Of a DNA stretch of 35,884 nt, positions 12,401 through 35,884 are shown one piece after another. Source of the stretch: Chromera velia (Eukaryota > Sar > Chromeraceae). Every line of letters begins with the position of its first letter. Positions within the stretch are counted from its first letter, which is position 1. The notes under the pieces are model-generated. The model had not been told where the DNA came from. It was given only the letters and a program-made list of their open reading frames with translations, and ran no database searches. The position numbers and the translations under genes are program-made. The DNA is taken from contig JAHBMJ010001074.1 of assembly GCA_018398765.1 (NCBI GenBank), positions 1 through 35,884 on the forward strand, given 5' to 3'.

Positions 12401-12401
<1 letters not shown>

Positions 12402-12639
12402 GGCTTTCCCTAATATAATAATATAAATATAATATTGTTCTGTCGTTTTCCCAAGGCACCGACTAGCCTAAGAAGTCACAGAATCGTTGAAGGACTTATG
12501 CGCAAGACTAACTGGATTCAGTTGCATATAGAAGAGTAGAATAGAATATTTCTTTCCTGTTTGATTGCTAGTAGTCAGTTCTAAGCTAGATTGGGAAGCT
12601 AGATAAGCTAAGAGGCTGATGATCGAGTTTAAGTGAGAT

Positions 12640-12945
12640 TACAGATTTTGTAATCACAAATTATAGAATTTGTAATTCGGTTAAAAGTTCAGAATTCTGC
12701 GTTGCATTCTTAGGTTTTTCGATCCAACACAATCCTTTGATTTTGTTTTTTTGAATGGTTTTCGTCGATTTCTGAGATTTTTTCCCAAAATTACATTTTT
12801 GTCGAATTACAAATATTTTGTAATTCCTATTTTTTATAATTTAATGCAGATTAGATAATTTGTAATTCAATCTGAGTTCCTGATTTACACAATCTGTAAT
12901 TCAGTTTAAATTCTGAAATTACACAATCTGTAATTCCGAATTACG
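12640..12945. repeat. Cluster of short TGTAATTC-type motifs
   Basis: Within about 300 bases the motif TTTGTAATTC or TCTGTAATTC recurs at least five times, for instance near 12669, 12824, 12857, 12894 and 12928. It is often preceded at 8-15 bases by a partner such as ATTACA, forming imperfect inverted repeats. The spacing is irregular, so this is not a simple tandem satellite. Confidence 0.7.
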
Positions 12946-14025
12946 TACCCCCAAGAAGCCTTCCTATGACTCTATGGTCTATCAATCAAATTTTGGGCTT
13001 TGGCAGGCTGGCGCTTTCGGTGCTAGGGCTTTGGTGATTCTTTCTAGTATGCAATACAGCTCCAGCTCATAGTAGCTTAAAAATGTTATAACTACCCCCT
13101 TGACGTTTCACTCCTTTTCTAGATAAGGCTTTTCAAGACACCAAGATCCGTTCTGGAATGTCTTCAAACTACTGATGTGTGCGCAAAGATAACAGACTAG
13201 AATTGGATCACTTTAGATTAGACAGTGGGAAAGGGCTGCATTAAAGTTACTGATCACCTTCTATGACTTCGAAAGATAAGAAATGATAGAGAGAGATGAT
13301 GAAGATGGAATGTGCAAATCCGGAGAAGTACATGGTGACTGAGAGAGGAGAAGACTATTTGGCACGGTTGCAGCTTGCTGTATAAAAGGTGTCTACCAGA
13401 TCGATTTGTGGCTTGTGCGGTGTGACAAAGAAAAAGTGGTAGTCGGTGTTTGACAGAAAATATAATTAGGTGAGGTTTGATTAAAATTGTTTTTATGACC
13501 TGTGTTAGAGATACAAGGCCGTAACAAGGGTCCCACTCAGTATATATAATCATATACAATAAACAATTTTTTAAAATTTTATAAGACTTAAATACTTTGT
13601 AGTTTTGTTTCTTTATGTAATAATAAGGATCGTTGCACACCCTAGGCGACAAAATTATTAAATAAAATTTTAGAATTTGGCGAAATTTCATTTTTGGGGA
13701 CGGTATTGGATCAAGCTTTCCCGTTTGAGAGTTTGGGGGCTAGTGTACTTATTACTATGATTTTAGGGTTATATTGGGTCATCTTTGCCTATACAATCAC
13801 TATCAAACTCAGGTGGGTCATTTGGTACCCTTAGGGTCATTCACGATATGCAAAAAACACATTTTTTAAAAGTCAGTAAGAAATAGGTATAGAGTCTTAT
13901 CAATAGACCAATAAGAAAAAACATCTTTAGATACAGTTTCACTAAAAGCATTTCTTTTACTTTTCAGCTAGTTTTTTGGATTAATTTCTTTGACATGAAG
14001 TTTATTCAATTTTCAATTTTGTCGT

Positions 14026-14310
14026 CTAGGGTAGTAAATATATTGGGATCATGCCTAGTTCATAAGTGACGGAGCCAGCTGTGCATTCTTGGCCACCCCT
14101 TATGACTACCTTTAATAAGGTATATTTCCTGCTAGTTGTTTCCCACAATGGATTGAACATTGGATTCAGCAACGCGGCATGCATGTAGCCGTATAGATCA
14201 GCCTCAATTGATGCAAGGTCATTGATCGAAGGAAAATTTGAGAGTGACTCTCCAGGCAACTTTCTTTCACGATCAGTTCGATCACTTTCTTTCACGATCA
14301 GTCCGATCAC
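14026..14310 (-). other. Minus-strand open frame, unrecognised
   Basis: A 94-codon frame containing IEADLYGYMHAALLNPMF. It has no domain I know, and its first codons come from the 25-bp repeat next door. It could be a relic of a mobile-element protein or chance. Confidence 0.2.
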
Positions 14311-14342
14311 TTTCTTTCACAATCAGTCCGATCACTTTCTTT
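14257..14342. repeat. 25-bp tandem repeat, about 3.4 copies
   Basis: Units at 14257-14280 (first base missing), 14281-14305, 14306-14330 and a partial 14331-14342 share the core CTTTCTTTCACGATCAGTCC with one or two substitutions each. Confidence 0.9.
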
Positions 14343-14639
14343 CCACCTGCGTCTTGTCAGCAAGACTACTTATATAAGCAGGAAGATCAATATCCACCAC
14401 CTGTCCTTCCAAGGTTTCGATTTTTAGTGTGAAAGAAGAACACATCCGGTCCGTCACTTTTGCCGGGCAAGATCAGGGTTGGGAAAAGACAGTACACTGT
14501 TTTTTCAAATTCTGGCTTTTTTCGTAAAAGATCAAGAAGTTACGATTATACTTTTTTTATCAGTATTGTGACTATCTTTGTCACTTCTGAGCAAGATCGG
14601 TGACGCAAAAAAAAATGTTGGGCATTATCGAAACAAAGA

Positions 14640-14756
14640 ATAGGACTGTTGACGACGTACGACTCCATCTCCTCCTTCAGTACCTCTTTGATCAGCTCCT
14701 ACCTCTTGTTGGGGTGGAGGCCCTCAAACTTGGGACTCTCAATCTCAACCCTGCAC
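14640..14756 (-). pseudogene. Possible BolA-like fragment with an in-frame TAG
   Basis: After a GTGTGCAG acceptor the minus strand reads VEIESPKFEGLHPNKR, then TAG, then ELIKEVLKEEMESYVVN in the same frame. Third positions are strongly G/C on both sides of the stop, so both halves look as if they were coding. The S..F.G.....R..L....L.EE pattern resembles BolA-family proteins, which work with glutaredoxins in iron-sulfur homeostasis. A GTAGGA donor overlapping the stop is an alternative explanation (exon ending at AACAAGAG). A further short open segment with a GTACGT donor at 16250-16300 on the same strand (LKEGIVPSTVKLIDV) could belong to it, but the phases do not join directly. The assignment is tentative. 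Confidence 0.35.
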
Positions 14757-15259
14757 ACGCACGTGAATGTATGCATGCATCCAGCAGCAAGCCGGCGAAC
14801 CAGAGTGCTTGCGTTTTAATACATACGTCAAGACGAAGACAGTGCGAAGTACGTGTGTGCTTGTATGTACGTACATATCATAAGTACCTGCGAACTAATC
14901 AGCAGGGGCTGTTTCCCCTCCCATACAAATTCTCTCCCCGTCAGCGATCTGTTTCTCCCTTTTTTCCCGCCGTTCGCTTCTTTGCCCCTGCCCCTCTCGA
15001 CTGGCAAGCGAGCGTGCACTGACAGACAAACAAAAAAAAAAAAAGAACGAACCAAAAAAAAGTCTCCTTTCCGGAACCCGTCTGGTCCGCGGACTCTGCG
15101 GACTGCATGCAGTCAGGCAATCAATACGTCATGCAGTCAGATCATCGTTCTGTCTGAATTATCTTCCTCCATATTTATGTAGCATGCAAGTGAATGCAGG
15201 CATGAGTCAATAAATAGACATGCGCGAAGATTCATGAACAGAGATGATTTGCGCAGTCT

Positions 15260-15303
15260 TGAGGCTGCATTCATTGATTCATTCATTCATTCATTCATTC
15301 ACT
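15260..15303. repeat. (ATTC)n microsatellite
   Basis: A short tetranucleotide run, ATTCATTC repeated, with one TGATTC variant at its start. Confidence 0.9.
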
Positions 15304-15539
15304 CAATCTTGTCTACGGATGCCAACAGACCATACAAAATGCAGAATGTCCTCACGAAATACGTGAGTATGTTGCTGGTAGGTTATTTCCTGCTGCCAAA
15401 CGGAACTTTTCGTGTGTGTGAACTTCCACGCAGACCAACGACCCGCAGATTCTTGAATTCTCCTTCGAAATGCAGGCGTGCGCGCGTGTTCGTATGGCTT
15501 GCACGTGTGAGTCTGTGCGCGTATGTGTGAGTCTGCTTT

Positions 15540-15635
15540 GTGTGTGTGCGTGAGAGAGAAAGAGAGCGCGCGCGCGCGCGCGTGTGTGTATGTGTGTCTA
15601 TCTGTCTGTCTGCCTGCCTGTCTGTTTGTGTGCTT
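15540..15635. repeat. Compound GT/GA/CG/CTGT low-complexity tract
   Basis: TG and GAGA runs surround an alternating CG run at about 15567-15581, followed by CTGT and CCTG repeats. The CG run is notable because such DNA can adopt the Z form. Confidence 0.9.
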
Positions 15636-15859
15636 CTGTGAGGGTTTGTATGCATGAGATCGATCGAGCGAATTTCTTTCATTTCTTTCCAACCACATGC
15701 ATGTATGCAGAGAGAGAGAGAATGTCTGTCAAGGACTCTGACATACCCAACAGATGTTTATACAAATAACTGAGCAGTCTGTCGGGTTCCCTCTCAAACT
15801 GTCCATCCATCCCTTGAGCTCTCTCTATCACCTGGCATGCATGCATGCATCTAGGGTTT

Positions 15860-16157
15860 ACATCACTCTCTCTCTCTCGCTCTCTCTCTCTTTCTCACGC
15901 ACGACATACACACATATCATATACTCATACGCATACACCCCCACATACACACACACACATACACACACATATACACACACATACACATACACATACACAC
16001 ACATACACACGCACGCACACACACACACGCACGCACGCACGCATGCATGCACGCACATATACACACACACATACACACACACATACACACACATGCACAT
16101 ACACACACACACATACACACACACATACACACACACGCACGCACGTACGCACGCATA

Positions 16158-16207
<50 letters not shown>

Positions 16208-16225
16208 CCCGCACGCACGCATGCA
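15860..16225. repeat. Long CT then CA-rich microsatellite (about 365 bp)
   Basis: A CT run (15865-15895) is followed by more than 300 bases of CA/CATA/CACG repeats, with pure CA at about 16163-16205. The His/Thr-rich and Cys/Val-rich frames across it are repeat artefacts. Confidence 0.97.
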
Positions 16226-16309
16226 CACTGACTGTCAATGCAGACGTACCACGTCAATGAGTTTCACTGTTGAAGGAACGATGCCCTCCTTCAACTGCAA
16301 CACATGCAC

Positions 16310-17300
16310 CCAGGAAGGAAGGAATGATGGAGGGAGGTTTCATCAACCCATCAACCAGTCAATCAACCGATCAATCACATGTCGATACGTTTATGAAAGC
16401 TTAGTGGAACGGAAACGATCTCCATAGAATGAATACAATAATCATAAAAGAAGGCCCAAGGACAGAACGGGACGGGCATTACTGAAACGTGCGGAACGTG
16501 AAAAATCTATTCGTTAGCCTTTCTGTGAACCTGATCACACCCCTAAAAGGCAAACAGAGACAGAACAATATTACACAGAAAGCCAGACAGCCAGACAGAG
16601 GGATAGAAAGACGACCTGCGTGTTATTCTTTCTGGTCTTTTTCCTTTTCATTTTCTCCAGACAGAAAGACAGCCAGGCGGGCAGTCTCTTTGCTCTTTAA
16701 GCTTGAAAGTCTGCGCTGCAGACGTGGATCATTTATGGTGTCTTGAAAGCCAAAGCCGCATATCTGGACGGTGTCTTAACCATCTACGCCGCAGGCATGG
16801 ACGGTCTCTTAAAAAAAGATACCGTAGATAGAGATGATCTTGATTATATTTTTTTAAGTGGCACTTAGGTTCAGGGAGGTTAGGTGTTTCACATGGAGGA
16901 CATAACAGAAGAACAGACCGTAGCTCAAAAGAACCGCCGCAGAATATTCAGACAGGCAATTCATGCTTGTGTCCCTCACCATCATGATGAGGCAGAAGAT
17001 TCCGAGCTTGTCTGGGAGGTGCCAATATAAGTAAACAAAAAGTAACACATGGAACTTTGCATTGTTTATAAACTTATCGCAGAGTAGAAATTTACTCTGG
17101 AAAATTATTCAGAAAATTTGATTTAATTCTTTTCTATAAAATAATATTTAGAATTATATAAAAATTTTGATTTATTGATTCAATTTAAAGCATTGTAAAT
17201 GAATTTTTAAAGTTGCATTCAGATACTAAATCCTAGAATAAAGGCATTTTTAAACTTTTTTCAACGTTTTTTACGCTATAGAGAGAATGCAGAAAGATCC
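16310..17300. other. Mixed intergenic sequence becoming AT-rich
   Basis: No gene is recognisable. From about 17040 the sequence is strongly AT-rich. At 16700-16815 two or three imperfect copies of a motif of the type GCCGCN...TGGACGGTNTCTTA occur. They resemble the GC-rich units at 17522-17690, so the two clusters may be parts of one element. Confidence 0.4.
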
Positions 17301-17320
17301 CTTGACTGCTTGGGGTGCCG

Positions 17321-17394
17321 CAGGCGGTCCGTAAGGACCGCTTGGGGAAGGTCATACATAAGACCCCAGGCGGCCCATCAAGGCCGCCTGGGGT
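17321..17394. repeat. Two adjacent GC-rich hairpins
   Basis: Hairpin one has stem CAGGCGGTCC (17321-17330), loop GTAA, and stem GGACCGCTTG (17335-17344) with one G-T pair. Hairpin two is a perfect 13-bp inverted repeat, ACCCCAGGCGGCC (17363-17375) with GGCCGCCTGGGGT (17382-17394), around the loop CATCAA. Both sit at the edge of a very AT-rich block. Confidence 0.9.
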
Positions 17395-17521
17395 CAGCGC
17401 AGGCAGTCATTCTGAAGGTTTAGACAGCATGAGAAGAACTCCTACCAAACACGCTGCATCAATAATTGAGAAAAAGAACCCCCCTGACACTCCAGTCTGT
17501 CTTGAAATAGTTTTTTCAATG

Positions 17522-17690
17522 TTGGCCGCACCTGCGGCATGGTTCTTTCAAAACTGTCTGCACCTTCTGCAAAACATTTCAAGTGTACTTAATTATGGCC
17601 GCGCCTTTGGCGTGGTCCTTTCAAGTTAAACCACACCTGCGGCGCAGGTGTTTCAAGTCTGGCCGCGCTTATGGTACGGCGTTTCAAGTT
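17522..17690. repeat. Five degenerate ~31-nt palindromic units
   Basis: Units start near 17522, 17552, 17594, 17628 and 17660. Each has a GC-rich core of the type GGCCGCRCCTGYGGC followed by a G/T-rich stretch and TTTCAAGT. The second copy is strongly eroded. The core is itself a small hairpin. Confidence 0.75.
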
Positions 17691-17901
17691 TAGTGGAGTG
17701 TGAGGAGAGTTAGAAGAAGAATGGATCAAGTCAGTCAGCACAACCTCCTCTAGCTCTAAGAGGAGGGTGCATTGCCAGGCAGTCTTCAACTCTTAAGGCT
17801 TGAACGAAATCTCCCTCTCCGCCTCCAGTCATGCTCTCTCACTCCAGCCCAGTGTATTAGGCCAATACACCCAACCCCCTACTCCTTAACAGACAAGAAC
17901 A

Positions 17902-18014
17902 TTATGCACAAGGGATGAAAAGATATGCACCCTTGACAGTGAGAGCATCCGCTGCCTCGTTACCAGGCTCTTTATTGTGCGCCTTCACCCATTGGATGTG
18001 TGACGGTAAACATT
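17902..18014 (-). pseudogene. RNase H C-terminal fragment (LINE/cellular type)
   Basis: The minus strand between an in-frame TAA and the stop at 17902-17904 reads HIQWVKAHNKEPGNEAADAL and ends shortly after. W-V-x-x-H with GNExAD is the hallmark of the C-terminal part of RNase HI domains as found in non-LTR retrotransposons. The fragment is about 36 residues and lacks the rest of the domain, so it is a relic. It differs in type from the copia-like RNase H at 18535-18957. Confidence 0.6.
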
Positions 18015-18534
18015 ACCTAGAATAGACTACAACAGTCAGGGTAATGAGAACGGTAACGCCTAAACAGCTAAACGGGAAGTCTAACCTACCGGGTCGCAGT
18101 TCTCAGTTATCCTCAGTCCAAACTGGAAAATCTATTCAGCAACAACAAAGAAATTCAAAGAGACGTCAATCTAGAATTCACTCAAACGAAGACCGCACAT
18201 TCGATCTAATACACGGGACCTCGACGCTCTAAACACGGCATACAGACTGATCAGACTGCGGCCATCTGAGAATGCTCTCTATCATCAACTGACTGAGCAG
18301 ACCAAGCCTTCGTACAGCCTCACTGTTCGATCAAGGAGTTAGATGCTAATGTACTCAAACATGCGATTACGCCGCTCGCAACACTTTTCACTCACGCGGA
18401 TAGCTGGCGTACTCGCAAAACGCTCGGCACCCACCTAACACACGCTTAGATGCATGCGTTTACTCTCATAAATCACCCCCTGTCTGAACTGAATACATTG
18501 TCAAACAGGAAGACACACTAAAAGAGAGAAACGC
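18015..18534. other. No gene recognised, probably retroelement-derived
   Basis: About 500 bases between two RNase H relics on the same strand. It has only short frames and no identified motif. Confidence 0.35.
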
Positions 18535-18957
18535 TTAACTGCAATGAAGGAACTTGGTCTGTCTGTCTGTACGCATTGACCTAGTTTTGATGTAACAAAC
18601 CTTTGCTCCTAACTCCATCAAGTTTTCCAAAACGTACTCCAACTCCCCCTGCATTCTTGGTTTGCTTTTGTACTGTTTGGAACCAATCTGATGTATCAGC
18701 GGCTGAGAGTCAGTCACCACTACAACCGGAGGCATCTCACTCCACAACTTTCGAACAAAATGAACGAACAACCAGGACATCTTCACTACGTCTCTCATTG
18801 CAAGAAGCTCTGCAAAAGTCGTAGACCCTAGTTTTCTTCCTATCTTCCTGCTCAGCCAATACACAGTATTGTGCTTACTGATCTTATCAAGATTGGTAAG
18901 CTCTCCTTCATTAACTAACTGCATCTCGACGCCCAGTCTACCCTCTTTTTTATGCAA
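18535..18957 (-). pseudogene. copia-type retrotransposon RNase H fragment
   Basis: A 140-codon minus-strand frame has the order typical of the C-terminal RNase H of Ty1/copia polyproteins: NTVYWLSRKIGRKLGSTTFA, ELLAM, VVVVTDSQPLIHQI, then a helix-rich stretch and KVCYIKTRSMRTDRQTK in the place of the usual ADxLTK ending. The E of AELLA and the D of VTDSQ are retained. It lies 3' of reverse transcriptase remnants on the same strand, as expected for one element. The upstream frame is broken. Confidence 0.75.
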
Positions 18958-19299
18958 TTAATAAGACGTATCCCCCCATACCAATAGAACTAGAAGGGAC
19001 AGAATAAAATGAAGAGACAAAGGATGGGAAGTCTTGAATGTATGTCAGAGAGCCTTCTCATTCGCAAGAACGGACTCACGAGATGGACGGGAATTGAAGC
19101 AGGAAAGGTAGGAAAACAGAAAGGAAACTTTAAAAGAATGTTAAGTCTTATTAATAGCGATTAACAGCCCATCCCAAACACCCCACATTCTTCTGCTACT
19201 GTTCTTGCAGGGATATATCAGTCTCTGCAGTCTCAAGCAACAGGAGATCTTTCTTAGTCAAGGGTTTCTTTGCCTCTTCACTTAGAGACACTCACTCCC

Positions 19300-19562
19300 T
19301 TTACCATTCCCTCAATATACGTGGACTGGTCAAACAACATCTCACCAGGACGCATCCGAATGGATATGCCCACATGAGAATGAAGCTCTCCATTGTCTAT
19401 TCTTTCTGGCTAGTCTGTGTCAAAAAGCTCCTGAATTTGCTTCACATCTTCGTCAACAGAAGGAGAAAAAATGAAGAGATCATTAACATGCATAACAAGC
19501 AAAGCAACGATCTCACCCTTCTTGTTCTTTCTGACCAAAATCGACTCAGCAATCTCAGTCTC
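19300..19562 (-). pseudogene. copia-type reverse transcriptase, second half, broken
   Basis: The minus strand reads ETEIAESILVRKNKKGEIVA then LLVMHVNDLFIFSPS. The catalytic box of copia reverse transcriptases is normally YVDD; here the equivalent position (19479-19490) reads HVND, so one catalytic aspartate is lost. A TAG follows at 19410-19412. Beyond it, frame-retained sequence includes FDQSTYIEGMV, matching the family's Q..Y...ML region, after which stops accumulate. Inactive relic. Confidence 0.75.
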
Positions 19563-19572
19563 TAGTCTCAGT

Positions 19573-19863
19573 CTACCCCAGACTGCTCACCCTCTTCTTG
19601 AAGTAACTTGTGTAGACCTTTGGGGCATCCTTCAGGCCGTAAACAGCCCTCAGAATGCGAACGAAGACGCCGGCACGGAGACCGGGATAGACCTCTACAG
19701 GGAGGTCGGACGGAAGGCGCAGCCACACTGCGTCTTTCATAGGCGCCTGTAGGAACGCAGTTAACACGTCCATTTTGGTTGTCTGCAGACCTTTTGAGAC
19801 GGCCCAGAGGAAGGCAACTCTAGTCAAACTTGCGTCTGCTATGCCAGAGTAGGTTTCAAGCAC
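19573..19863 (-). pseudogene. copia-type reverse transcriptase, first half, truncated
   Basis: A 96-codon frame reads SLTRVAFLWAVSKGLQTTKM, DVLTAFLQAPMKDAVWLRLP and RAVYGLKDAPKVYTSYFKK, closely matching copia reverse transcriptase (KMDVKTAFL and YGLKQ.PR.W in the family). It ends at a TAG and continues in another frame at 19562, so a frameshift separates the halves. Upstream (above 19866) the similarity stops abruptly at AT-rich DNA. Integrase and gag are not seen, so the element is 5'-truncated. Confidence 0.8.
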
Positions 19864-19869
19864 CGACTA

Positions 19870-20560
19870 ATCACGAGAGTCTTAGAACCAAATAAAAGTC
19901 TATCAAAAGGAATACACTTTCACAATTGATGTACTTTCATAATTAACAAACTTTGTAGGGAGTACTGTAGACTCGAGTACGTATGAAATGCAACTTTGTA
20001 GAAAAAGAAAAGAAAGAATCGATTGGAAACTTTATGCCGTCTTCACCTCGGATTGACAGAATTAAATCCCAAATCGAATTGACTTACCTTCTCAAAGAAT
20101 TGACTTGAAGTGACTTAAACCAACCTTCACTAACTTAAAACTTCAACAATATTGATTGAATACTCAATTGATATATTCGGCTCTCATTTTAATTCTACTA
20201 TTCTTCCGTTTCGACTTTTTCGGACCTCAGGCTACTAAATCCGGAGGAGCACGGAACACTAGTGTTCTTTCTTTCAACATAATTAATGATCAACTTTTGA
20301 ATGATCATAATATTGATCTAAATATTCGTAATATTTAATTCTTACATCATATAAATCATGTATTATATCAGTAAAGTACCGATATAATGATGACAAACCT
20401 AGCCTAATTAACGGTATATAACGGTGTTCTTGCTCCAGATTGTACACATGGTTTTGCTTTTAAAAAGCAGTATTCATACCTTCAGCTACTGACAGTGCAA
20501 AGAACTTTTGATCATCATCCTAATTGAGCATTCACCCTTCTTCCTTTTGAGCACCTCCAG
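19870..20560. other. AT-rich region without gene
   Basis: AT-rich sequence with short frames only. It borders the truncated end of the reverse transcriptase relic. No repeat or domain recognised. Confidence 0.45.
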
Positions 20561-21411
20561 GATCTCTCGTCCGTTTCACCCCTGATGCACTTCTGCTGGG
20601 TACCTGCAGAGGCGCTTCTGCAGAGGCTTGCTGGACAATTGGGAGCGCTGGTGGGATTCTGTCAGCCGTAGGGTGGGTATGGGAGCCGAGCTGCGATTGC
20701 GCAGTCTGTGCTCCCTTTCTATCTGCTTGCTGAACAGGTGTTTCTCGACCGTTCCCTCCCGCTACTCCTGGTTGCGGTGTCTTCTGCGTTGTGTTTCTCT
20801 TCTTTCTGTGAACCTTCGATGTCAGATGTTGGGCCCATTCGCACGGTCCGTTGCATTCTTTCTTGCACCGCTCGCACCAATATCTGCATCATGCATCGTT
20901 GTATGCACACACCATTCGGAAATAGGCTGTGATCAGAAGAGATTCGACTGACAGCAGAATCTTCCCAAGCGAAAAGTAACCGGAAGGGTGCCGGAAAACG
21001 AACACTCCGCACTCAAATGACACACAAACTTTTCCCAAATGTCCAGATTTCCATGACCTCTTTCCCGCCTCCCTGCCGAAAGTCCATCTCTCTCTTAGAC
21101 TACTTACTTTTGCCAGGGTCTGCTTTCTGCTTCTCGTCTGAGGGCCTCCTCTCTCTGTCTTCTTCCACTCGGTACTCTCCCCGAGTCGTCCCGTGTCGCT
21201 GTGGTGTGGTTGTCGTTTTTCGTTCGTGTTTGCAAACAGAGACGCAGAAAGAAGAAAAATCGGATCCATGCAGCAATCAATGAACGGCAGTCGAGAAAAA
21301 CAGAAGGGAAGAAAATACGTGGGGATGGATCCATTCGGCCGTGCAGAGAATGTAGAGATGCGTAACAGTCTCCCTGCCTCCTCCCTTCTTCCCCTTGTCT
21401 CCTCTTCCCTT
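20561..21411. other. GC-normal region with open segments, gene unresolved
   Basis: Codon usage recovers here. A minus-strand stretch at about 20580-20750 (KHLFSKQIEREHRLRNRSS and onward to a stop) has good third-position G/C. The plus strand is also open over 20628-20951. Neither shows a known domain. It may hold a terminal exon of the neighbouring tRNA-modification gene or of another gene. Confidence 0.25.
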
Positions 21412-21622: not shown

Positions 21623-24606
21623 GGGGGGGGGGGAGAAAAACATGCACGCATGTCCCTGGAGAAAGCCCAAACGACTGACCGAATGAACAGCACAGCCAGG
21701 GACCTCCAACTGCTGCTGCAGCTTCAGGACCCTCCTTGAAGAATGCTGCAGGCAGCAGAGGGAGCATCAATCACCACCGAAGCACGAACTTAAAAAAAAA
21801 CATCACGCTTGATCATGGTGCTAAAAATGTAAATGTAAAAGAATTCACACAGAAAGAACTCCAGCTGCAGTTGCAGCCCCGGCCAGACTTGTCCAAAGAG
21901 TGTTCTGATAAAGGCAGGGAGTAGCAGGTCAGTAACATGCCTTGTTGACCAAACAGGGGAAAGAGATTCAAACAAAGCGCGTCAAACTCCAAGCGTACAA
22001 AAAAAAAGAAAAAGATGTTGATTATTTTGCTTGCTTGCGTAAACCATTTCTGTTGTGAACAGGAAACATTTCCTTCCTGAGCCTACGACCCCGTTTCTAT
22101 ATGTTTGCGGTATTACTGCTCTTCTCAGGCCTCTTTTCTGTCCTGTCCATCTGTGTGACTGTGCCTGGAGGTCACGTGGACTCACCGATGGCGCATGACA
22201 CTGCGGGATTCGCAACCCTCTGCTTCCACCTCTTCTCTTTCTTCTCCTTCTCACGCTTTCTCGACTCCTTTTCTGTGTCTTTTTCGTCTCCACTCCTGCA
22301 GCTACCCTTTGACGTCTCAACACTGTGTGCAGCTCCATTCTCTTCGTTTTGCGTATGACCCCCCGGATCCACTTCCGCCCCTTCTTCTGCTGCGTCATCT
22401 TCTTGTTCGATCACTGCATGCATCCGTACAGGCAAGAAAAAAAGGAATCTTCCAATGGTTCCCTCACGCGAGCAAAACAAAAGAGCAAGGGTCTGTACAG
22501 TCAAAAGCTGCTCAGCCATTCCTTGAGTGACTGAAAGTGGCAGGACAACCACAAAGAAGCGAGCCGATGGAAGCACAGATGGAAGAACACGGACGCGGAA
22601 GAGCGAAAGAGACGTCAAAGCGGAAAGGAAACAACACAAAACACAAATTGGTGAAGCGACAACGCACAGAAAGGCACACGCACCTCCTGAGTCAAACCGG
22701 AAAGCCACTCCAACGGCAGTTGTGGTAGAGGAAGAGGAAGAGGAGGAAGATCCCCCAGAAGTCTCGTGAGAACTCGCCGCTGCAGCCGCGCGGCATCCAT
22801 CTGATGGATTTTCTTTCTCTCCCCCTTCTCCTGCTCCCCCCCCGTTTGCATTCTGTCTAACGCCACCTTCTGTCATTCCTTCCAACTGCCCTCCTTCCCC
22901 CCTCTGCTCCCCTTCTAATTCCACTTCTTTTCCTTTTCCCGGCACGAACAGAGGCACAAGTTTTGAGAGCACGAAGGCCCTCTGGCGCTTTGCGTACTCG
23001 ACACTTGCTCTCGTGACCTCCTCGACGCATCTTCTCTCATCGACACCGTCTGCTCAGAGGAAGCAGAGAAAGCAGATTCAGTTCAGAAGCAGAATTCGGG
23101 GTTGGTTGACTTCTGGACCGACACTAAAGACGGGAAGGATGTAAACCTCCGCACCCGTCCAGGAAATGGAACTCAAAGTGTGACAAAGGGAGGTAGAAGG
23201 TTCAACGTCTCTTCTCTCTTCGGTTTCTTCTTGTTCACATCTCTAAAGGGGCCCATCCCACTCAATCACCCGATGCACGTAGAGCGAATTCCGTTTGAAA
23301 TGAGCGCTTTCATGAAGACCCCGGGACAGTCTTCACGGGATTGTATACAGCATTGCCCGGATTCATGGCATGAAAGAAAAGGGGAGATGGAAACACTCAC
23401 AAAAGGGCAACGACGACACGTGCACAAGGACTGAGAGTCACAAACGCTGCAAACCTTCATCAAACGGAAGAGGTGCGAGTTGTTGCAGTCTCTTCTCTCC
23501 CCCATCCCCCCCTTTCCCTGCAGCCCCGCATTCCCTCATCACGTCTCCCTCAGCATCCACCATCTCCTCGTCTTCTCCCTCCTCCCACCGTCCTCTCTTA
23601 GCGACTCCTTGCTCGCCCCCCTCAAGGCTCTCGGCTCTTTTCTTCAAAAGCGGCAGGAACTCTTTATATCCTGCAACACGGAAGGCTCTTTTCTTCAGAA
23701 GCGGCAGAAACTCTTTGTATCCTGCAACATGGAAGGCTCTTTTCTTCAAAAGCGGCAGGAACTCTTTGTATCCTGCAACGGAAGGCTCTTTTCTTCAAAA
23801 GCGGCAGGAACTCTTTGTATCCTCCAACATGGAAGGCTCTTTTCTTCAAAAGCGGCAGGAACTCTTTGTATCCTGCAACATGGAAGGCTCTTTTCTTCAA
23901 AAGCGGCAGGAACTCTTTGTATCCTGCAACACATCCGAAGCAGAACTCTGGGCAAAGTTGAGATAGAGGCAGGGGGACAGAGAGAGCAGGAGAGCCAAGC
24001 CAAGCTCTTACAAACATCGAGGAGACTTCTCTCCCAAGGGGAAAAGAACAAATGACAGCAGTACCCAATCGAGGTATTCTGCTCAGGATCGGTCAGTTGA
24101 GAGTCTTCTTTTCGGATCCCAAAAGGCTGCACAGCAGCATGCAAATAACAGCCTCGCAAAGAAGTACCAAAGAGAGAAAATAGATACAAAGAAAGAGAGC
24201 ATGAAGACTGCATGCCCGACCGATGCCCTGAAGGATTCCTCTTCCCTCCACCACATTCCCCTTTGTCCACAGACGTTCCAACAAAGCGATCTCTTCCAGC
24301 AACCCTTCCTGCACAATATCCGCGCACGTGCAAACACTTCTAAGAGCATGTCTGTGAAAAGAGAGTCACGATGAGATGAGAGAATTCGAGTGGAGTGGAA
24401 GCAAAAAGACAAAGGGCGCAGAAAGTGATCGGACGAGAGAGACTCATCGAATTAATGCGAAAAGAACGAAAAAGGAGAGCAGAACAAAAGATCCGAAAGC
24501 AAGGCCTGGATCTTTGATCTCTTCGCTCAATGCGATCACAGAGAGCTTCCTTCCTTCCTTCCTTCCTTCAAAATTTCGTCTAGTCCTCCCGAGAAAACAC
24601 AGACGC

Positions 24607-24649: not shown

Positions 24650-26141
24650 CCTTCATCATCCCCTCGGCCCTCCCCCTCAGTCTTCTGTTCAAAATCTGAG
24701 AGCCGCAGTCTAACCAGAAGAGACAGCTCTGGTATCTGCACGAAGAATTAGGGGAGGAGAGAAGGGGGGAAGGACAACAAGGAATGACGGCGAGTCCTTA
24801 CTGCTGCCTTCACCTGCCTCTCAACTGAAAGGGAATATTTCCGCTTTCCTTCAATGGGCCTACGCGTCTTCGGACTGAGTCAGGGCAGCACTTTCCGCTC
24901 TATGGGCCCAGAAAGACATTTTGAGATAGATAGAGAGACAGATAGATAGATTGATAGATAAAGCTAGAGAGATAAATAGAGAGAGAGAGAGAGAGAAAGG
25001 GAGAGAGGTAAATAGATAGATAAATGGGAGGAAGAAAGGATGCACAAAGACGGTTCTCAGTTTCTCACAGAGCTGGACTCACTTCAAGTTTCCTTTTTTG
25101 AGTCCCTCCTTCCGTCGCTTCTCGGCATCAGTCACGCTCTCCCCAGTCTCGTTCAACACCTGTGCAAGCAAGTGCAATGCAGTCACTCACATCGAATTCA
25201 CAGAGCAGCCCCACCATTCAAACGGGAAAGCAAAGACAAGAGCACGCGACATCAAAACCATTTTGCTCTTTCTGCATCAACGCAGAATCACACGGAGTGT
25301 CAGACAGACAGAGAAACAGACACACACACAAAAAGACAAAAACCCGCATCAGAATGGCCAGCCGTCCAAGAGAAAAACAAGTCAGCCGTCCACCAGCCGA
25401 TACGCACGCAACCCAAACAGAAGTAGATGACCGAGGACCCCCCAAAAGGACCAACTCGCAGACACACGAAGAAAACAACTTCACAGGACCAAAGATAGAA
25501 ACATCTAGGAGAAACACTGAAGGATATAGAACGAAACCAAGACCCCCCAAAACAGACACGCACACACCTGGAGGGATCTGATCAATCTTCTGCAGAAAGA
25601 AGTCGAAGCGTCAAAGCACAGAGTGGACATGTGTACGAGAGAGCAATCAAAGTGTACAAGAGAAAAGGAAGTAGTCACTACTATGCTTAAGAGAAATGCC
25701 TGTAATCTGCATAATTTCTGGAAAAACATGTCCAAGAAGGAAACAGAACAGCCGAGACAAAGAGCAAACGTTGGCAACAGAGATCGCTGGTGGGGTGGAA
25801 GCGACGCAGAGAGCAAGAACGAATGGAAACAGAAAGTTGTGTATGCGAGAACATGACAGCGCACACGCGCACGTACGTGAGTTTGTGTGTTTGCACTACG
25901 ATGGTGTCTGTCATCTGATGGATAGAACGGATTCGCGTACCTTCGATCATTCGGATGAAGCTTTGCCGCCTGCAGGCCAGGAAGGACCGACGCACAACGC
26001 AGAACAAAGAAAGAGGAAGAAAGAAAGACTTCAATCACAGGGGAGATCGAAATTTCCCCTCCTCTGTCTGGCCTTCCCATTGCATGGCGTCACACCACAT
26101 GTGGGGAGCTGAGTAGAGAGACAGCTTTCCGTGTCACTCTT

Positions 26142-26175
<34 letters not shown>

Positions 26176-26859
26176 TGTATCGTTGCTGCGAGTGTCCCAA
26201 ACTTTGCTTTGAGGCATTCATCCCAAACTTTGCTTTGAGGCATTCATCCCAAACTTTGCTTTGAGGCATTCATCCCAAACTTTGCTTTGAGGCATTCATC
26301 ATCCGTCCGTCCGTCCGTCCGTCCATCCGTCCGTCGACTTGTTCATGCATTGTTCCTCTTTTCGCCACATTCACGGAAGATCCCTCGTTTCTTTCCTGTT
26401 TCTTGTCGACTGACGTACCTACTCACCCTCTGGGGGTCTCTCTCCTTCAACATCTCCAGAAGAGCAGCGTCATCGAGGGCCTCAAGATCCAGATCCCCCC
26501 CCAGCCATGCACAGCCAGGCGAGGGCCCCATAATCGAATTGCAGAAGGAGGAAGAAGACGAAGAAGAGGAAGACGAGGAAGAGGAAGAGGGGAAGGATTC
26601 GTCACCCTTTTCTTCGTCTTCTTCTTCCTCTCCTTCGTGCCCTTGCTCTTCCCCTTCCAGCTGCATCCCCCCTCATGCAGCACACAAACAGCAGGCCGGA
26701 AGGAAACATGACCTCAGCAAGAGCAGAAAAGGTCAAGAATGAGGCCAACAGAGCGTCTGACCGCAATAATTCAACTTCGCACGACTGTTCTGGGAAAGAA
26801 GGAAACGAAGAGCTACGAAAACAACTGAAATTTCTTTGCCGAATGCACACACACACTTT

Positions 26860-26915
<56 letters not shown>

Positions 26916-28139
26916 GAGAGAGAGGGAGGGAGGGAACGAGGGTGGGTGAGGGAGACAGAAGAGAAGCACAGATGCCAACGAAGATGCAAAAACAAAAAAA
27001 AGCAGGTGACAGACAGACCGAAAGACAGGGGGGCAGAGGGAAAGAGAGATGAGAGACGGAGGAGGACACAGAAAAGGAAAGGAAGCAAATGGACAGAAAG
27101 AAAGAAAGAAGGACAAGCAAGCCCACCAGAGTAATCAGAGAGAGCATCCACATCACGGTTCCCCCAACGACAACAGGACAGACGCCCTTGCCGTGGAGCT
27201 CCTTGATCTGTTCAGGAGAGAGAGTCCAGCGCAGGGGATTTGTGACACCTAGTTTCTTCATGCGAATCAAACATCTTCATTTTGCAAAGGCGTCTTACAA
27301 GACTAGAAAAAAACGGTTCTTCCTGATCTTCATCCATCCATTTCACAAAGGCGAATCGGTGCCGTGTCTTCCCCGTTTCGTTCTTCCCATCGTAGTCGTC
27401 TGTCTTGTCGAGTGTGTCGATATATCGACTGATGAAAATTCTTCCCTTCCCATGCATTCGCTTCCCTTCGCTTTCCACTGCAATTGTGGAATCCTGAAAC
27501 CTTCCAACGAAAACAAAGAGAGCGCATCGTCTTCCTGCCAGTCCGAATGTTCGTCGAACAAAGTCTGAAGGGCTTGAAGCAGGAGAAGAATTCCTTCTTT
27601 GGGGAATTCATCCGCTTTTATGCATATGTTCAGATATGTATAAGTACACATATGAAAACCAACCTTTGCTTGTGCCTCTTCGAGGAACCTCTTCAGATTG
27701 TAAGCATCTTCTGGCTGACAGATGTCCAACAGATGGTGCGTTGCTCTCCGTCTCTCCTCCTCGTTTGCTTTTGCACTCCCCACAGAAAAGGAAGAGTACA
27801 CCTTCACAACGATAGACAAAAGGATACTATGAGAAAAGATCCAGTCTGAGAGGAAAGGGAAGAAAACATGGAGAGCTGAAGCAATCTGGAGGGAATGGGG
27901 GGGGTTCCTTTCGTGGGGGGGAATCGTTGGACAGAACAATCAATGCTGTCATACATGCATGCATGCATGCATCCGGGCAATCACAACCGTTTGCTCACTC
28001 AACGAAAAAGAGTTACAGCTCTAAAAATGACGGATCAATTGGTTTTCAATAATTCTTGGTAGAGCGACGAGAGTAAGCCAACCCTGACCACCCGCGAACC
28101 CCGAGGCATGCACCCACGCATCAACAGGCGCGCGCGCAT

Positions 28140-28177
<38 letters not shown>

Positions 28178-28812
28178 TCATAGACGCACAGGCAGAAGGG
28201 AGAACAGACAGACGGACAAACCTGCATGGAGTCCCCGTTAATGACTTCCATTTTCAGACCGGCAGCTGCCACGGCCCCAGACTCACATAGGTCGACTGAG
28301 AGCTTTGTTTTCCCAGTGCCTGCATGTTGACGCAGATACGAGAGTGTTCAGCATCTTTTTCTGCCTCTCATTCACACGCAGGCTTTGCTTTTTTGCGTGG
28401 GACACGCAGAGAGACTTAGTAACTATGCGTAATTCCATGTACGTAATTTTCTGCTGTCTTTTCAAATTCCAGGAAATCTGCCGGTCCAGACTGTCTCTTT
28501 TCAGCAAACAAATCTTATGAGATCGATCCTGAACGCGCATGTCAAGGGGGGGAAATGCTCTCAAGCATCCGGACTCACAGAGAAGAAAACAGCTGGACAG
28601 GCGGACAGGCCGCAAGCAACGAGAAAAAGGGATGGACAGATGAACAGGCAGACCGACGGACCTGTGGCCCCAATAATGAAGAGCACTTTCAAGCGTTCTC
28701 GCTCAGTCTGCCCGTCTCCGTCTCCCTTGCGAAGACGACCTTGATCACCCAGTTCGCATCCCCCCAGCGCACCCTGTCCACCCCACCCAGGCCCGCCTTC
28801 GTCGTGCATCAT
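21412..28812 (-). CDS. TRIT1: tRNA dimethylallyltransferase (isopentenyl transferase), 15 exons
   Basis: The enzyme adds a dimethylallyl group to A37 of certain tRNAs. Exons: 28812-28662, 28319-28222, 27801-27664, 27207-27127, 26660-26427, 25969-25941, 25589-25568, 25159-25083, 24735-24651, 24308-24221, 23670-23455, 23049-22684, 22413-22186, 21745-21704, 21452-21412. All junctions are GT..AG and in phase, giving about 631 residues. Family motifs in order: P-loop VLFIIGATGTGKTKLSVDL (split by intron 1), EVINGDSMQVYSSFSVGSAK, THHLLDICQPEDAYNLKRF, CPVVVGGTVMWM, LHPNDRRRLIRSLQ, WLDC, EGLLEEIALLERLW, RGILQGIGYKEFLP, and CVEEVTRASVEYAKRQ. It exceeds typical lengths (about 300 bacterial, 400-470 eukaryotic) through an acidic/Ser-rich insert in exon 5 and a long charged C-terminal part. 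No organelle presequence is evident. The Met at 28812 is the first after an in-frame TGA. The last two short exons are phase-consistent but weakly supported. Confidence 0.9.
21581..21632. repeat. (CA)n followed by poly-G
   Basis: About 20 CA units followed by AGA and a run of G, in an intron near the 3' end of the tRNA dimethylallyltransferase gene. Confidence 0.95.
23629..23932 (-). repeat. Six tandem 51-bp copies of an exon start including its splice acceptor
   Basis: On the minus strand (gene sense) each unit begins at TTGCAG|GA and encodes GYKEFLPLLKKRAFHVA. Acceptor-defined exon starts fall at 23923, 23872, 23821, 23772, 23721 and 23670. Spacing is 51 bases everywhere except 49 between 23821 and 23772, caused by a missing AT at about 23779. 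Starting at 23670, 23721 or 23772 leaves the downstream frame open into the conserved exon 12. Starting at the other three gives a frameshift and a stop. One unit (23821) has TTGGAG instead of TTGCAG. GYKEF is the family's conserved IGYKEF motif. Confidence 0.92.
24546..24569. repeat. (TTCC)n run
   Basis: A short tetranucleotide run, CTTCCTTCC..., within an intron of the tRNA dimethylallyltransferase gene. Confidence 0.85.
24602..24650. repeat. (CA)n microsatellite abutting an exon
   Basis: A CA run that on the minus strand begins exactly at the donor of the exon at 24651-24735, so the intron starts with GTGTGTGCGTG. Confidence 0.95.
24922..25025. repeat. GATA/GAGA low-complexity tract
   Basis: About 100 bases of GATA and GA repeats in an intron of the tRNA dimethylallyltransferase gene. 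Confidence 0.9.
26139..26176. repeat. (CT)n(CG)n microsatellite
   Basis: A CT run followed by an alternating CG run, in the intron between the exons at 26427-26660 and 25941-25969. Confidence 0.95.
26196..26335. repeat. 26-bp tandem repeat, four identical copies, then (CCGT)n
   Basis: Perfect copies at 26196-26221, 26222-26247, 26248-26273 and 26274-26299 each begin CCCAAACTTTGCTTTGAGGC. They are followed by a CCGT tetranucleotide run with one CCAT variant. They are intronic in the tRNA dimethylallyltransferase gene. Unlike the other minisatellites here, the unit has no splice-acceptor-like motif in the gene sense. Confidence 0.95.
26862..26940. repeat. (CT)n(CA)n(GA)n compound microsatellite
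   Basis: Three dinucleotide runs in succession, passing into GGGA repeats, in an intron of the tRNA dimethylallyltransferase gene. Confidence 0.95.
28141..28177. repeat. (CA)n microsatellite
   Basis: A CA run in the second intron of the tRNA dimethylallyltransferase gene. Confidence 0.95.
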
Positions 28813-30198: not shown

Positions 30199-33100
30199 CT
30201 TTCCTCTTTGCAGACAAAGAAGGGCAGAAACCTCTCTCTCTATACATCTTTCCATTCTCAACAGGTAGAGAACGGTAAAGATCCCTCTCTCTGTGCGTCT
30301 TCACTCTTTGCAGACAAAGCAGGACAGAGACCCCTCTCTCTGTACATCTTTCTTCTTTGCAGACAGAGAAGGGCAGGTCCTGGACCCGTCTCTCTGTACA
30401 TCTTTCTTCTTTGCAGACAGAGAAGGGCAGGACCCCTCTCTCTGTATATCTTCATTCTTTGCAGACAGAGAAGGCCAGAGACCCCTCTCTCTGTATATCT
30501 TCTTCTTTGCAGACAGAGAAGGGAAAAAAACCCTCTCTCTGTACATCTTTATTCCTTGCAGACAGAGCTTGAAGGCTAAAGATCCCTCTCTCTGTACATC
30601 TTTTCATTCTTTGCAGACAGAGAAGGGCAGGACCCCTCTCTCTGTACATCTTTCTTCTTTGCAGACAAAGAAGGCAGGAGACCCCTCTCTCTATACATCT
30701 TCATTCTTTGCAGACGGAGAAGGGCAGAGACCCCTCTGTCTGTACATCTGTATTCTTTGCAGACAGAGAAGGGCAGGACCCCTCTCTCTGCACATCTTCA
30801 TTCTTTGCAGACAGAGAAGGGCAGGACCCCTCTCTCTGTACATCTTCTTCTTTGCAGACAAAGAAGGAAGGAGACCCTCTCTCTGTAAACCTTTCTTCCC
30901 TGCAGACAGAGAAGGGCAGGACCGTCTCTCTGTACATCTTTCTTCTTTGCAGACAAAGAAGGCAGGAGACCCCTCTCTCTGTACATCTTCATTCTTTGCA
31001 GACAGAGAAGGGCAGAGACCCCTCTGTCTGTATATCTGTATTCTTTGCAGACAGAGAAGGGCAGGACCCCTCTCTCTGTACATCTTTCTTCTTTGCAGAC
31101 AGAGAAGGCCAGAGACCTCTCTCTCTGTACATCTTTCTTCTTTGCAGACAGAGAAGGCCAGAGACCCCTCTCTCTGTACATCTTTCTTCTTTGCAGACAG
31201 AGAAGGCCGGAGACCCCTCTCTCTGTACATCTGTCTTCTTTGCAGACAGAGAAGGGAAAAAAACCCTCTCTCTGCATATCTTTCTTCTTTGCAAACAGAA
31301 AAGGGCAGGACTCCTCTCTCTGTACATCTTTCTTCTTTGCAGACAGAGACGGGCAGGACCCTCTCTCTGTACATCTTTCTTCTTTGCAGACAGAGAAGGG
31401 CAGGACCCCTCTCTCTGTACATTTTGCTTCTTCGCAGACAGAGAAGGGCAGAGAACCATCTCTCTGTGCATCTTCTTCTTTGCGGGCAGAGAAGGGCAGG
31501 ACCCTCTCTCTATACATCTTTCTTCTTTGCAGACAAAGAAAGGCAGGACCCTCTCTCTGTACATCTTTCTTCTTTGCAGACAGAGGAGGGCAGGACCCTC
31601 TCTCTGTACATCTTTCTTCTTTGCAGACAGAGAAGGGCAGAGACCCATCTCTTTGTACATCTTCTTCTTTGCAGACAGAGAAGGGCAGGACCCTTCTCTC
31701 TGTACATCTTCCTTCTTTGCAGACAGAGAAGGGCAGGACCCTCTCTCTGTACATCTTTCTTCTTTGCAGACAGAGAAGAGCAGGACCTTCGCTCTATACA
31801 TCTTTCTTCTGTGCAGACAGAGAAGGGCAAGACCCCTCTCTCTGTACATCTTTCTTCTGTGCAGACAGAGAAGGGCAGGACCCCTCTCTTGGTACATCTT
31901 TCTTCTTTGCAGACAGAGAAGGGCAGGACCCCTCTCTCTGTACATCTTTCTTCTGTGCAGACAGAGAAGGGCAGGACTCCTCTCTCTGTACATCTTCATT
32001 CTTTGCAGACAGAGAAGGGCAGGACCCCTCTCTCTGTACATCCTTCTTCTTTGCAGACAGGAAAGGGCAGGACCATCTCTCTGTACATCTTCATTCTTTG
32101 CAGACGGAGAAGGGCAGGACCCCTCTCTCTGTACATCTTTCTTCTTTGTAGACAGAGAAGGGCAGGACCCCTCTCTCTGTACATCTTTCTTCTTTACAGA
32201 CAGAGAAGGGCAGGACCCCTCTCTTGGTACATGTTTCTTCTTTGCAGATAGAGAAGGGCAGGACCGCTCTCTCTGTACACCTTTCTTCTTTGCAGACAGA
32301 GAAGGGCAGGACCCTTTCTCTGTATATCTTTCTTCTTGCAGACAGAGAAGGGCAAGACCTTCTCTCTGTACATTTTTCTTCTTTGTAGACAGAGAAAGGC
32401 AGGACCCCTCTCTCTGTACATCTTTCTTCTTTGCAGACAGAGAAGGGTAAGAGACCCATCTCTCTGTACATCTTTCTTCTTTGCAGACAGAGAAGGGTAG
32501 GACCCCTCTCTCTGTACATCTTTCTTCTTTGCAGACAGAGAAGGGCAGGACCCTCTCTCTGTACATCTTCATTCTTTGCAGACAGAGAAGGGCAGGACCC
32601 CTCTCTCTATATATCTTTCTTCTTTGCAGACAGAGAAGGGCAGGACCCTCTCTCTGTACATCTTCATTCATTGTAGACAGAGAAGGGCGGAGACCCTTCT
32701 CTCTATACATCTTTCTTTTGTGCAGACAGAGAAGGGTAGGACCCCTCTCTCTGTACATCTTTCTTCTTTGTAGACAGAGAAGGGCAGGACCCCTCTCTCT
32801 GTACATCTTTCTTCTGTGTAGACAGAGAAGGGCAGGACCCCACTCTCGGTACATCTTTCTTCTTTGCAGACGGAGAAGGGCAGGACCTTCTCTCTGTACA
32901 TCTTTCTTCTGTGCAGACAGAGAAGGGCAGGACCCCTCTTTCTGTACATCTTCATTCTTTACAGACAGAAAAGGGCAGGACCCCTCTCCCTGTACATCCT
33001 TCTTCTGTGCAGACAGGGAAGTGTAGGACCATCTCTCTGTACATCTTCATTCTTTGCAGACGGAGAAGGGCAGGACCCCTCTCTCTGTACATCTTTCTTC

Positions 33101-35884
33101 TTTGCAGACAGAGAAGGGCAGGACCCCTCTCTGTACATCTTTCTTCTTTACAGACAGAGAAAGGTGGCACCCCTCTCTCTGTACATCTTTCTTTTTTGCA
33201 GACAGAGAAGGGCAGAGACCCATCTCTCTGTACATCTTTCTTCTTTGCAGACAGAGAAGGGCAGGGACCCATCTCTCTGTACATCTTTCTTCTTTGCAGA
33301 CAGAGAAGGGCAGGACCCTCTCTCTGTATATCTTCATTCTTTGCAGACAGAGAAGGGCAGGATCCCTCTCTCTGTACATCTTTCTTCTTTGCAGACAGAG
33401 AAGGGCAAGACCCTCTCTCTGTACATCTTCATTCATTGTAGACAGAGAAGGGCAGGACCCCTCTCTCTGTACATCTTTCTTCTTTGCAAATAGAGAGGGG
33501 CAGGACCCTCTCTCTGCACATCTGTATTCTTTGCAGACAGAGAAGGGCAGGACTCCTCTCTCTGTACATCTCTCTTCTTTACAGATAGAGAAGGCAGGAC
33601 CCCTCTCTCGGTACATCTTTCTGCTTTGCAGACAGAGAAGGGCAGGACCCATCTCTCTGTACATCTTCTTCTTTGCAGACAGAGAAGGGCAGAGACCCCT
33701 CTCTCTGTACATCTTTCTTCTTTGCAGACAGAGAAGGGCAGGACCCCTCTCTCTGTACATCTTTCTTCTTTGCAGACAGAGAAGGGCAGAGACCCATCTC
33801 TTTGCTACATCTTTCTTCTGTGTAGACAGGGAAGGGCAGGACTCCACTCTCTGTACATCTTTCTTCTTTGCAGACAGAGAAGGGCAGGACCTCTCTCTCG
33901 GTACATCCTTCTTTGCAGACAGAGAAGGGCAGGACCTTCTCTCTGTACATCTTTCTTCTTGCAGACAGAGAAGGGCAGGACCCTCTCTCTGTACATCTTT
34001 CTTCTTTGCAGACAGAGAAGGGCAGGACCCATCTCTCTATACATCTTTATTCTTTGCAGACAGAGAAGGGCAGAGACCCCTCTCTCTGCACATCTTCATT
34101 CTTTGCAGATAGAGAAGGGCAGGACCCCTCTCTCTGTACATCTTTCTTCTTTGCAGATAAAGAAGGGCAGAGACCCCTCTCTCTGTACATCCTTCTTCAT
34201 TACAGACAGAGAAAGGCAGAGACCCCTCTCTCTATACATCTTTCTTCTGTGCAGACAGGGAAGGGCAGGACCCCTCTCTCTGTACATCTTTCCTCTTTGC
34301 AGACAGAGAAGGACAGGACCTCTCTCTTGGTACATCCTTCTTTGCAGACAGAGAAGGGCAGGACCTTCTCTCTGTACATCTTTCTTCTTGCAGACAGAGA
34401 AGGGCAGGAACCTCTCCCTGTACATCTTTCTTCTTTGCAGACAGAGAAGGGCAGGACCCCTCTCTCTGTACATCTTTCTTCTTTGCAGACAGAGAAGGGC
34501 AGGACCCTCTCTCTATACATCTTTCTTCTTTGCAGACAAAGAAGGGCAGGATCCCTCCCTCTGTAAATCCTTCTTCTTTGCAGACAGAGAAGGGCAGGAC
34601 CCTCTCTCTGCATATCTTCATTCTTTGCAGACAGAGAAGGGCAGAAACCTCTCCCTGTACATCTTTCTTCTTTGCAGACAGAAACGGGCAGGACCCCTCT
34701 CTCTGTACATCTTTCTTCTTTACAGACAGAGAAGGGCAGGACCCCTCTCTCTGTATATCTTTATTCTTTGTAGACAGAGAAGGGCAGGACCCCTCTCTCT
34801 GTACATCCTTCTTCTGTGCAGATAGAGAAAGGCAGGACCCTCTCTCTGCACATCTTTCTTCTTTGCAGACAGAGAAGGGCAGAACCCTCTCTCTGTACAT
34901 CCTTCTTCTTTGCAGACAGAGAAGGGCAGGACCCATCTCTCTATACATCTTTATTCTTTGCAGACAGAGAAGGGCAGGACCCCTCTCTCTGCACATCTTC
35001 ATTCTTTGCAGATAGAGAAGGGCAGGACCCCACTCTCTGTACATCTTTCTTCTTTGCAGATAAAGAAGGGCAGAGACCCCTCTCTCTATACATCCTTCTT
35101 CTTTACAGACAGAGAAAGGCAGAGATCCCTCTCTCTATACATCTTTCTTCTGTGCAGACAGCGAAGGGCAGGACCCCTCTCTCTGTACATCTTTCTTCTT
35201 TGCAGACAGAGAGAACAGGATCCTTCTCTCTGTAAATCCTTCTTCTTTGCAGACAGAGAAGGGCAGGACCCTCTCTCTGTACTTCTTCGCAGACAGAGAA
35301 GGGCAGGACCCTCTCTCTGTATATCTTCATTCTTTGCAGACAGAGAAGGGCAGGACCCCTCTCTCTGTACATCTTTCTTCTTTGCAGACAGAGAAGGGCA
35401 GGACCCTCTCTCTGTACATCTTTCTTCTTTGCAGACAGAGAAGGGCAGGACCCCTCTCTCTGTACATCTTTCTTCTTTGCAGACAGAGAAGGGCAGGACC
35501 CTCTCTCTGTACATCTTTCTTCTTTGCAGACAGAGAAGGGCAGGACCCTCTCTCTGTACTTCTTCGCAGACAGAGAAGGGCAGGACCCTCTGGACCCTTC
35601 TCTCTGTACATCTTTCTTCTGTGCAGACAGAGAAGGGCAGGACCCCTCTCTCTGTACGTCTTTCTTCTTTGCAGACAGAGAAGGGCAGGACCCCTCTCTC
35701 TGTACATCTTTCTTCTTTGCAGACAGAGAAGGGCAGGACCCCTCTCTCTGTACATCTTTCTTCTTTGCAGACAGAGAAGGGCAGGACCCTCTCTCTGTAC
35801 ATCTTTCTTCTTTGCAGACAGAGAAGGGTAGGACCCCTCATTCTGTACATCTTTCTTCTTTGCAGATAGAGAAGGGCAGGACCC
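30199..35884. repeat. 48-bp tandem minisatellite, about 118 copies, continuing past the right edge
   Basis: The unit, starting at TTTGCAGACAGAGAAGGGCA and continuing through GGACCCCTCTCTCTGTACAT and CTTTCTTC, repeats with 47-, 48- and occasional 49-bp variants, chiefly from CCC versus CCCC after GGA. The leftmost few copies (30207-30340) are the most diverged, and copies near the right edge are nearly identical. Higher-order blocks recur: for example a set that includes truncated TACATCCTTCTTTGCAG copies appears near 33,890 and again near 34,325. Each unit carries CTTTCTTCTTTGCAG, a good plus-strand splice acceptor. The consensus has no stop codon in any of six frames, so the long frames on both strands are artefacts. 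Confidence 0.97.

Follow-up and report, generated by a model that had tools for sequence, protein, structure and literature searches.

When the end of an intron has been copied several times in tandem, which copy is used in splicing, and does the choice matter for the protein? The question is raised by a gene of Chromera velia in which a minisatellite extends from the 3' end of intron 10 into exon 11. The window analysed here, which is the entire contig, is 35,884 bases long.

The identity of the gene, read from sequence alone as a tRNA dimethylallyltransferase, is supported by family models. Four single open reading frames (ORFs) around the gene matched 0 Pfam families, and the gene was therefore modelled exon by exon. 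When spliced with the exon-proximal acceptor (A6, see below), the model scores 182.5 bits for TIGR00174 (miaA equivalog, cut-off 148.65) and 179.9 bits for PF01715 (cut-off 23.6), i.e. it passes both cut-offs as a MiaA/TRIT1-type enzyme. The P-loop, DSMQVY and IGxKE motifs are all present in the spliced protein, as seen in the sequence and the alignment, and the gene is apparently intact. PF01715 matches the genome at one place, 27664-27801 of this contig, in an exon-wise six-frame search with E up to 10, by which other exons or a diverged second gene may be missed. For exon 5, a start at 26784 was rejected, as it breaks the frame, and 26660 was taken instead. The gene model is as follows:

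28812-28662 (-): exon 1 (model; start codon guessed)
28319-28222 (-): exon 2 (model)
27801-27664 (-): exon 3 (model)
27207-27127 (-): exon 4 (model)
26660-26427 (-): exon 5 (model)
25969-25941 (-): exon 6 (model)
25589-25568 (-): exon 7 (model)
25159-25083 (-): exon 8 (model)
24735-24651 (-): exon 9 (model)
24651..28812 (-): span of exons 1-9 (TIGR00174, PF01715)
24221..24308 (-): exon 10, ends GGC-ATC-G, encodes ...GILQGI (alignment)
23924..24220 (-): intron 10 up to acceptor A1, 297 nt
23455..23670 (-): exon 11 with acceptor A6, 216 nt, phase 1 at both ends
22684..23049 (-): exon 12, frame fixed by the conserved YAKRQ stretch (homology)
22186..22413 (-): possible exon 13, a tail of low complexity (placed by splice signals and an open frame; no homology)
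20535..20888 (-): ORF with a C-terminal-type zinc finger (zf-met, 24.2 bits, cut-off 21.2)

A C-terminal zinc finger is present in some eukaryotic MiaA/TRIT1 members. The ORF at 20535-20888 is probably the last exon of the gene, with phases that do not match those of exon 13. Intron 5 of the modelled gene holds a separate array (26195-26300; 26 bp, 4.1 copies, 100% matches).

Two homologue searches were made. In the first one the best matches are metagenome proteins, and the named homologues among the best 20 come from Eimeria, Neospora and Cyclospora, and also from insects, mammals and one bacterium; in the second one the best match is from Eimeria. Across ten aligned proteins IGYKE always keeps its I, G, K and E, and the segment just after it is of variable length. 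The structure PDB 3eph, which we take to be yeast Mod5, has IGFKEFLPWL at the position of IGYKEF. The pattern [IV]G[YF][KR][EQ] was searched in 173 homologues (the best 120 of 390 matches and all 53 matches of the second search): it occurs once in 123 of them and is absent in that form in 50.

The array itself was delimited by TRF at 23633-23932 on the minus strand, with a period of 51, 5.9 copies, 94% matches and a score of 537. It is made of six head-to-tail copies of a 51-bp unit that joins the 3' end of intron 10 to the first 38 nt of exon 11. Counted from just after each AG, a copy consists of a 38-nt coding core, a spacer of 13 nt (11 in copy 3) and the next AG; the successive lengths are 51, 51, 49, 51 and 51 bp, and the last copy is the 38-nt core followed by the rest of the exon. 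On the minus strand the first exon bases after the six AGs are 23923, 23872, 23821, 23772, 23721 and 23670 (A1 to A6). The coding part of the unit corresponds to the conserved IGYKEF motif of the dimethylallyltransferase family. The copy listing, the TRF result and the boundary placed by homology agree with the initial description of a unit spanning the acceptor and the start of exon 11. That description had counted six TTGCAG acceptors. The six AGs are indeed there, and TTGCAG precedes five of the six copies, but the third (A3, 23821) reads TTGGAG, and upstream of A1 there is another AG (CCCAG, before 23947). Between the coding cores there are three differences, every one of them synonymous; the spacers have a one-base change in two copies and have lost 2 bases in a third, changes that are not synonymous. 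With lengths of 49-51 bases and so few differences between them, the six copies cannot be due to chance. In the 177.8-Mb assembly (4040 contigs) the array DNA is matched once. Its elements are:

23633..23932 (-): minisatellite, end of intron 10 and start of exon 11, six copies (TRF and copy listing)
23670..23671 (-): acceptor A6, TTGCAG then GATATAAAG, exon-proximal, in frame, one motif copy (frames; matrix score 7.5)
23721..23722 (-): acceptor A5, in frame, two motif copies (frames, matrix)
23772..23773 (-): acceptor A4, in frame, three motif copies (frames, matrix)
23773..23821 (-): copy 3, 49 bp, 2 bases short, shifting A1-A3 out of frame; the acceptor of this copy (A3) is TTGGAG
23872..23923 (-): acceptors A1 (23923) and A2 (23872), both out of frame, with a stop in the last copy (frames)

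The reading frames limit which of these acceptors can be productive. Exon 10 ends with GGC-ATC-G, as had been proposed, at 24221 (phase 1) and just before a GT; exon 11 ends at 23455, also before a GT, and exon 12, placed by homology, continues in phase 1 with CVEEVTRASVEYAKRQ. Exon 11 measures 216, 267 or 318 nt from A6, A5 or A4, and each of these versions reads without a stop through exon 12; the corresponding junctions give one, two and three motif copies, in agreement with the sequence-only reading. Its claim that a 2-base deletion shifts the three distal acceptors is also borne out: copy 3 is 49 bp long, and the A1, A2 and A3 junctions, like that of CCCAG (23947), run into a stop in the last copy. 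Skipping of exon 11 keeps the frame and loses the motif. With exons 10 and 12 as modelled, an mRNA can be productive only through A4, A5 or A6, or by leaving exon 11 out. Homology fixes the frame on either side, in exon 10 and in exon 12, and A4-A6 are the only acceptors that connect the two; this result counts in favour of exon-proximal splicing.

The strength of the acceptors was estimated with a matrix built from 11 other acceptors of the same gene, at sites that we assigned ourselves; it is too weak to decide. The scores are 7.5 for A6, the highest of the six, 7.0 for A5 and A2, 4.4 for A4, 3.9 for A1 and 2.5 for A3. By the same matrix, the 11 training acceptors range from -1.2 to 11.5 when each is left out in turn, and 196 decoy AGs have a median of -1.6 and a 90th percentile of 3.7. 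Two AGs within intron 10, at 24126 (10.4) and 24078 (8.6), outscore all six array acceptors, so the acceptor cannot be chosen on this basis. The pyrimidine share between -40 and -5 is 0.81 for CCCAG, 0.64 for A1 and 0.56-0.58 for A2-A6, the richest run being located upstream of A1, outside the units. The first AG downstream is usually favoured (first-AG rule), and together with this run the rule would favour A1 or CCCAG, both out of frame. A CTGAA lies about 24 nt before the AG of A6 and, by eye, of no other array acceptor; judged against the branch-site consensus, it would make a plausible branch site.

How common such arrays are was estimated on a sample of the genome, counting arrays with a period of 15-200 and at least 2.5 copies (TRF). 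Twenty stretches of 10 kb, chosen arbitrarily (contigs C5-C955, positions 10,001-20,000), contain 24 arrays, which make up 1.7% of the sequence (193,910 unmasked bases), and five further stretches contain 4 arrays, tallied by hand, in 42,081 unmasked bases. This amounts to 28 arrays in 235,991 unmasked bases over 25 stretches, or about 119 per Mb, a density at which some arrays must fall on exon ends. Straddling of an exon end could be established by homology for one of the 28; of the other 27, 15 were inspected as ORFs and 12 as TRF rows. In one stretch (L003, 4084-4947) a potassium-channel-like pore (VGYGDVVP, by eye) is followed in the same open frame by an array of three 138-bp copies.

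The straddling array (stretch L013, contig C505, 9716-9880; 41 bp, 4 copies, 98%) is built of an exon's final 30 coding bases plus the donor, AACAG/gtgggcc. The three joined exons score 117.4 bits for TIGR01814 (kynureninase) over positions 4-148 of 400, where the cut-off for the full length is 246.4, and the 194 joined residues matched 0 Pfam families. The stretch used to complete this kynureninase-like gene (L023) was excluded from the array count. Introns could start at 9746, 9787, 9828 or 9869; the first of these donors (9746) is the only one in frame with the next exon, the other three reaching one shared stop. Its array DNA also has one match in the genome. This second case looks like the tolerance of a mutational by-product.

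Several known systems were compared with the Chromera array. NAGNAG tandem acceptors, in which competing AGs lie 3 nt apart, likewise place several competing AGs at one intron end; they were rejected as a model, the spacing here being 49-51 nt and due to duplication. An array of mutually exclusive exons was also rejected: no GT ends the 38-nt coding core in any copy, other GTs inside the unit having been looked at by eye. Intron gain by tandem duplication (e.g. PMC2891723 and PMC4974935) also copies splice signals; unlike in that process, no new intron is seen here and no unit has a GT at the close of its coding core. The closest counterparts are the amphioxus mirages, described in PMC3087553 as minisatellite-like duplications of intron-exon boundaries whose copies could serve as cryptic splice sites, with RT-PCR and Adh3 data that suggest intact regular splicing. 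The same paper reports that mirages are unstable in length, somatically too at Adh3. PMC3902484 adds troponin C and PGBD5 to the mirage genes and states that the duplication of splice sites in Adh and troponin C yields no aberrant mRNAs.

The Chromera array is a mirage. Every structural feature tested was found: a tandem minisatellite that spans an exon boundary, a repeated splice signal, and a second gene of this kind in the genome, the kynureninase-like one. As in the amphioxus cases (Adh3, BflGb6, BflGb9, troponin C and PGBD5), AG or GT is present in many copies, donor as well as acceptor sides are concerned and several genes of one genome are affected. In contrast, the unit is 51 bp or 41 bp here, compared with 10-72 bp (Adh3) and about 150-160 bp (globins) in the same accounts; the host is a distant eukaryote and three acceptors are in frame. 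Internal tandem repeats of human segmental duplications (PMC2812944) are boundary minisatellites that similarly alter exon/intron structure: introns differ between paralogues, and 66% of the changes also have a repeat-retaining transcript. That study compared recent paralogues and their transcripts, whereas the Chromera array has a single match and is known from DNA alone. By analogy, variation of the repeat number at the Chromera array would be plausible.

We lean, with some reserve, towards a mirage in which A6 is mainly used and the upstream copies are tolerated with no regulatory role. Slippage or unequal exchange would have built the array; the spliceosome would mainly take the exon-proximal A6, giving a protein collinear with the family, and the upstream copies would be carried as near-neutral, unstable intron sequence. 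If A5 or A4 were used occasionally, the extra 17-residue units would fall where the length already varies in the family. This explanation draws on the rank of A6 among the six acceptors together with the CTGAA found only before it, on the lancelet boundary repeats reported to leave splicing undisturbed, on the kynureninase-like array where only the exon-proximal donor is open, and on the abundance of arrays of this class. Against it, a unit of 51 divisible by three and core changes that are all synonymous mean that several copies could be translated, and the human intron changes made by repeats often come with an alternative transcript.

The strongest rival takes these last points further: A4, A5 and A6 would all be used, giving enzymes that carry the motif three times, twice or once and that differ in the loop after it. 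All three acceptors are in frame, A5 nearly equals A6 (7.0 and 7.5), and what follows the motif is of variable length in the ten aligned proteins. The synonymous core changes hint that the last copies may be translated; three out of three would arise by chance with a probability of 0.011 if any substitution is allowed and 0.057 for transitions, which makes this a weak test. The alternative transcripts of human boundary repeats (PMC2812944) point the same way. On the other side, a second motif copy of the pattern used above occurs in 0 of the 173 homologues (best 120 of 390 matches plus 53), and aberrant mRNAs are denied for lancelet mirages in PMC3902484. We regard translation from all three acceptors as rather unlikely.

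Less probable still is an artefact of assembly or allele, in which the sequence errs in the 2-base difference or in the number of copies, the true structure being one coding exon starting at A1, or an array of another length. The array contains one exact 71-base repeat, at 23930 and 23779, 151 apart. A Chromera assembly described in PMC4501334 used k=71; if it is the present one, as we presume, the number of turns round the 151-bp loop is not fixed by k-mers. The count of six copies is accordingly uncertain. The divisibility of the unit by three fits a continuous coding exon, and one lancelet mirage was misassembled in a draft genome, according to PMC3087553. However, there is no other exact repeat of at least 71 bases in 23600-23990: the next longest are 56 and 55, and the changes that distinguish the copies, the 49-bp one included, thus sit in unique 71-mers. 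The kynureninase-like array shows moreover that such structures recur. A control by unproductive splicing, in which A1-A3 would lead to a stop and decay and the choice of acceptor would set the enzyme level, has in its favour the stops that A1-A3 and CCCAG all reach in the last copy and the best pyrimidine run upstream of A1, but the similar geometry at the kynureninase-like donor points to a mutational process, and we think it very improbable. A tuning of the protein form or a shut-off of the enzyme through acceptor choice, as the sequence-only reading had suggested, is conceivable but drew no support from the tests made here.

Other elements of the window were recorded. From 30199 to 35884 a 48-bp minisatellite of about 118 copies, each with an acceptor-like TTTCTTCTTTGCAG, reaches the contig end; a 301-base piece of it matches the genome at 448 sites or more, spread over many contigs (with 24 of 47 candidates scored), which identifies it as a dispersed satellite. 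Long 4-base repeats of GATT and CACA type lie at 9455-9793 and 15942-16205. The neighbouring ORFs carry an inosine-uridine nucleoside hydrolase domain (7065-7994, minus strand) and a DnaJ domain (10291-10809, plus strand).

Within a partial coverage of the literature, the recognised reports of splice-boundary arrays concern lancelets and human paralogues (PMC2812944) only, and none on Chromera minisatellites was found. It is highly doubtful that boundary minisatellites are a genome-wide, ongoing habit of this organism, some of them, such as the present one with its three in-frame acceptors and its frameshifted upstream copies, having become copy-number-tunable splicing elements that set isoform or mRNA level. 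With two cases in one protist genome, one of them from an arbitrary sample, the process seems not to be confined to lancelets. Arrays of this sort offer a natural way to test how a spliceosome picks one acceptor or donor out of several that are nearly identical, and they may open a route to new introns or longer exons.
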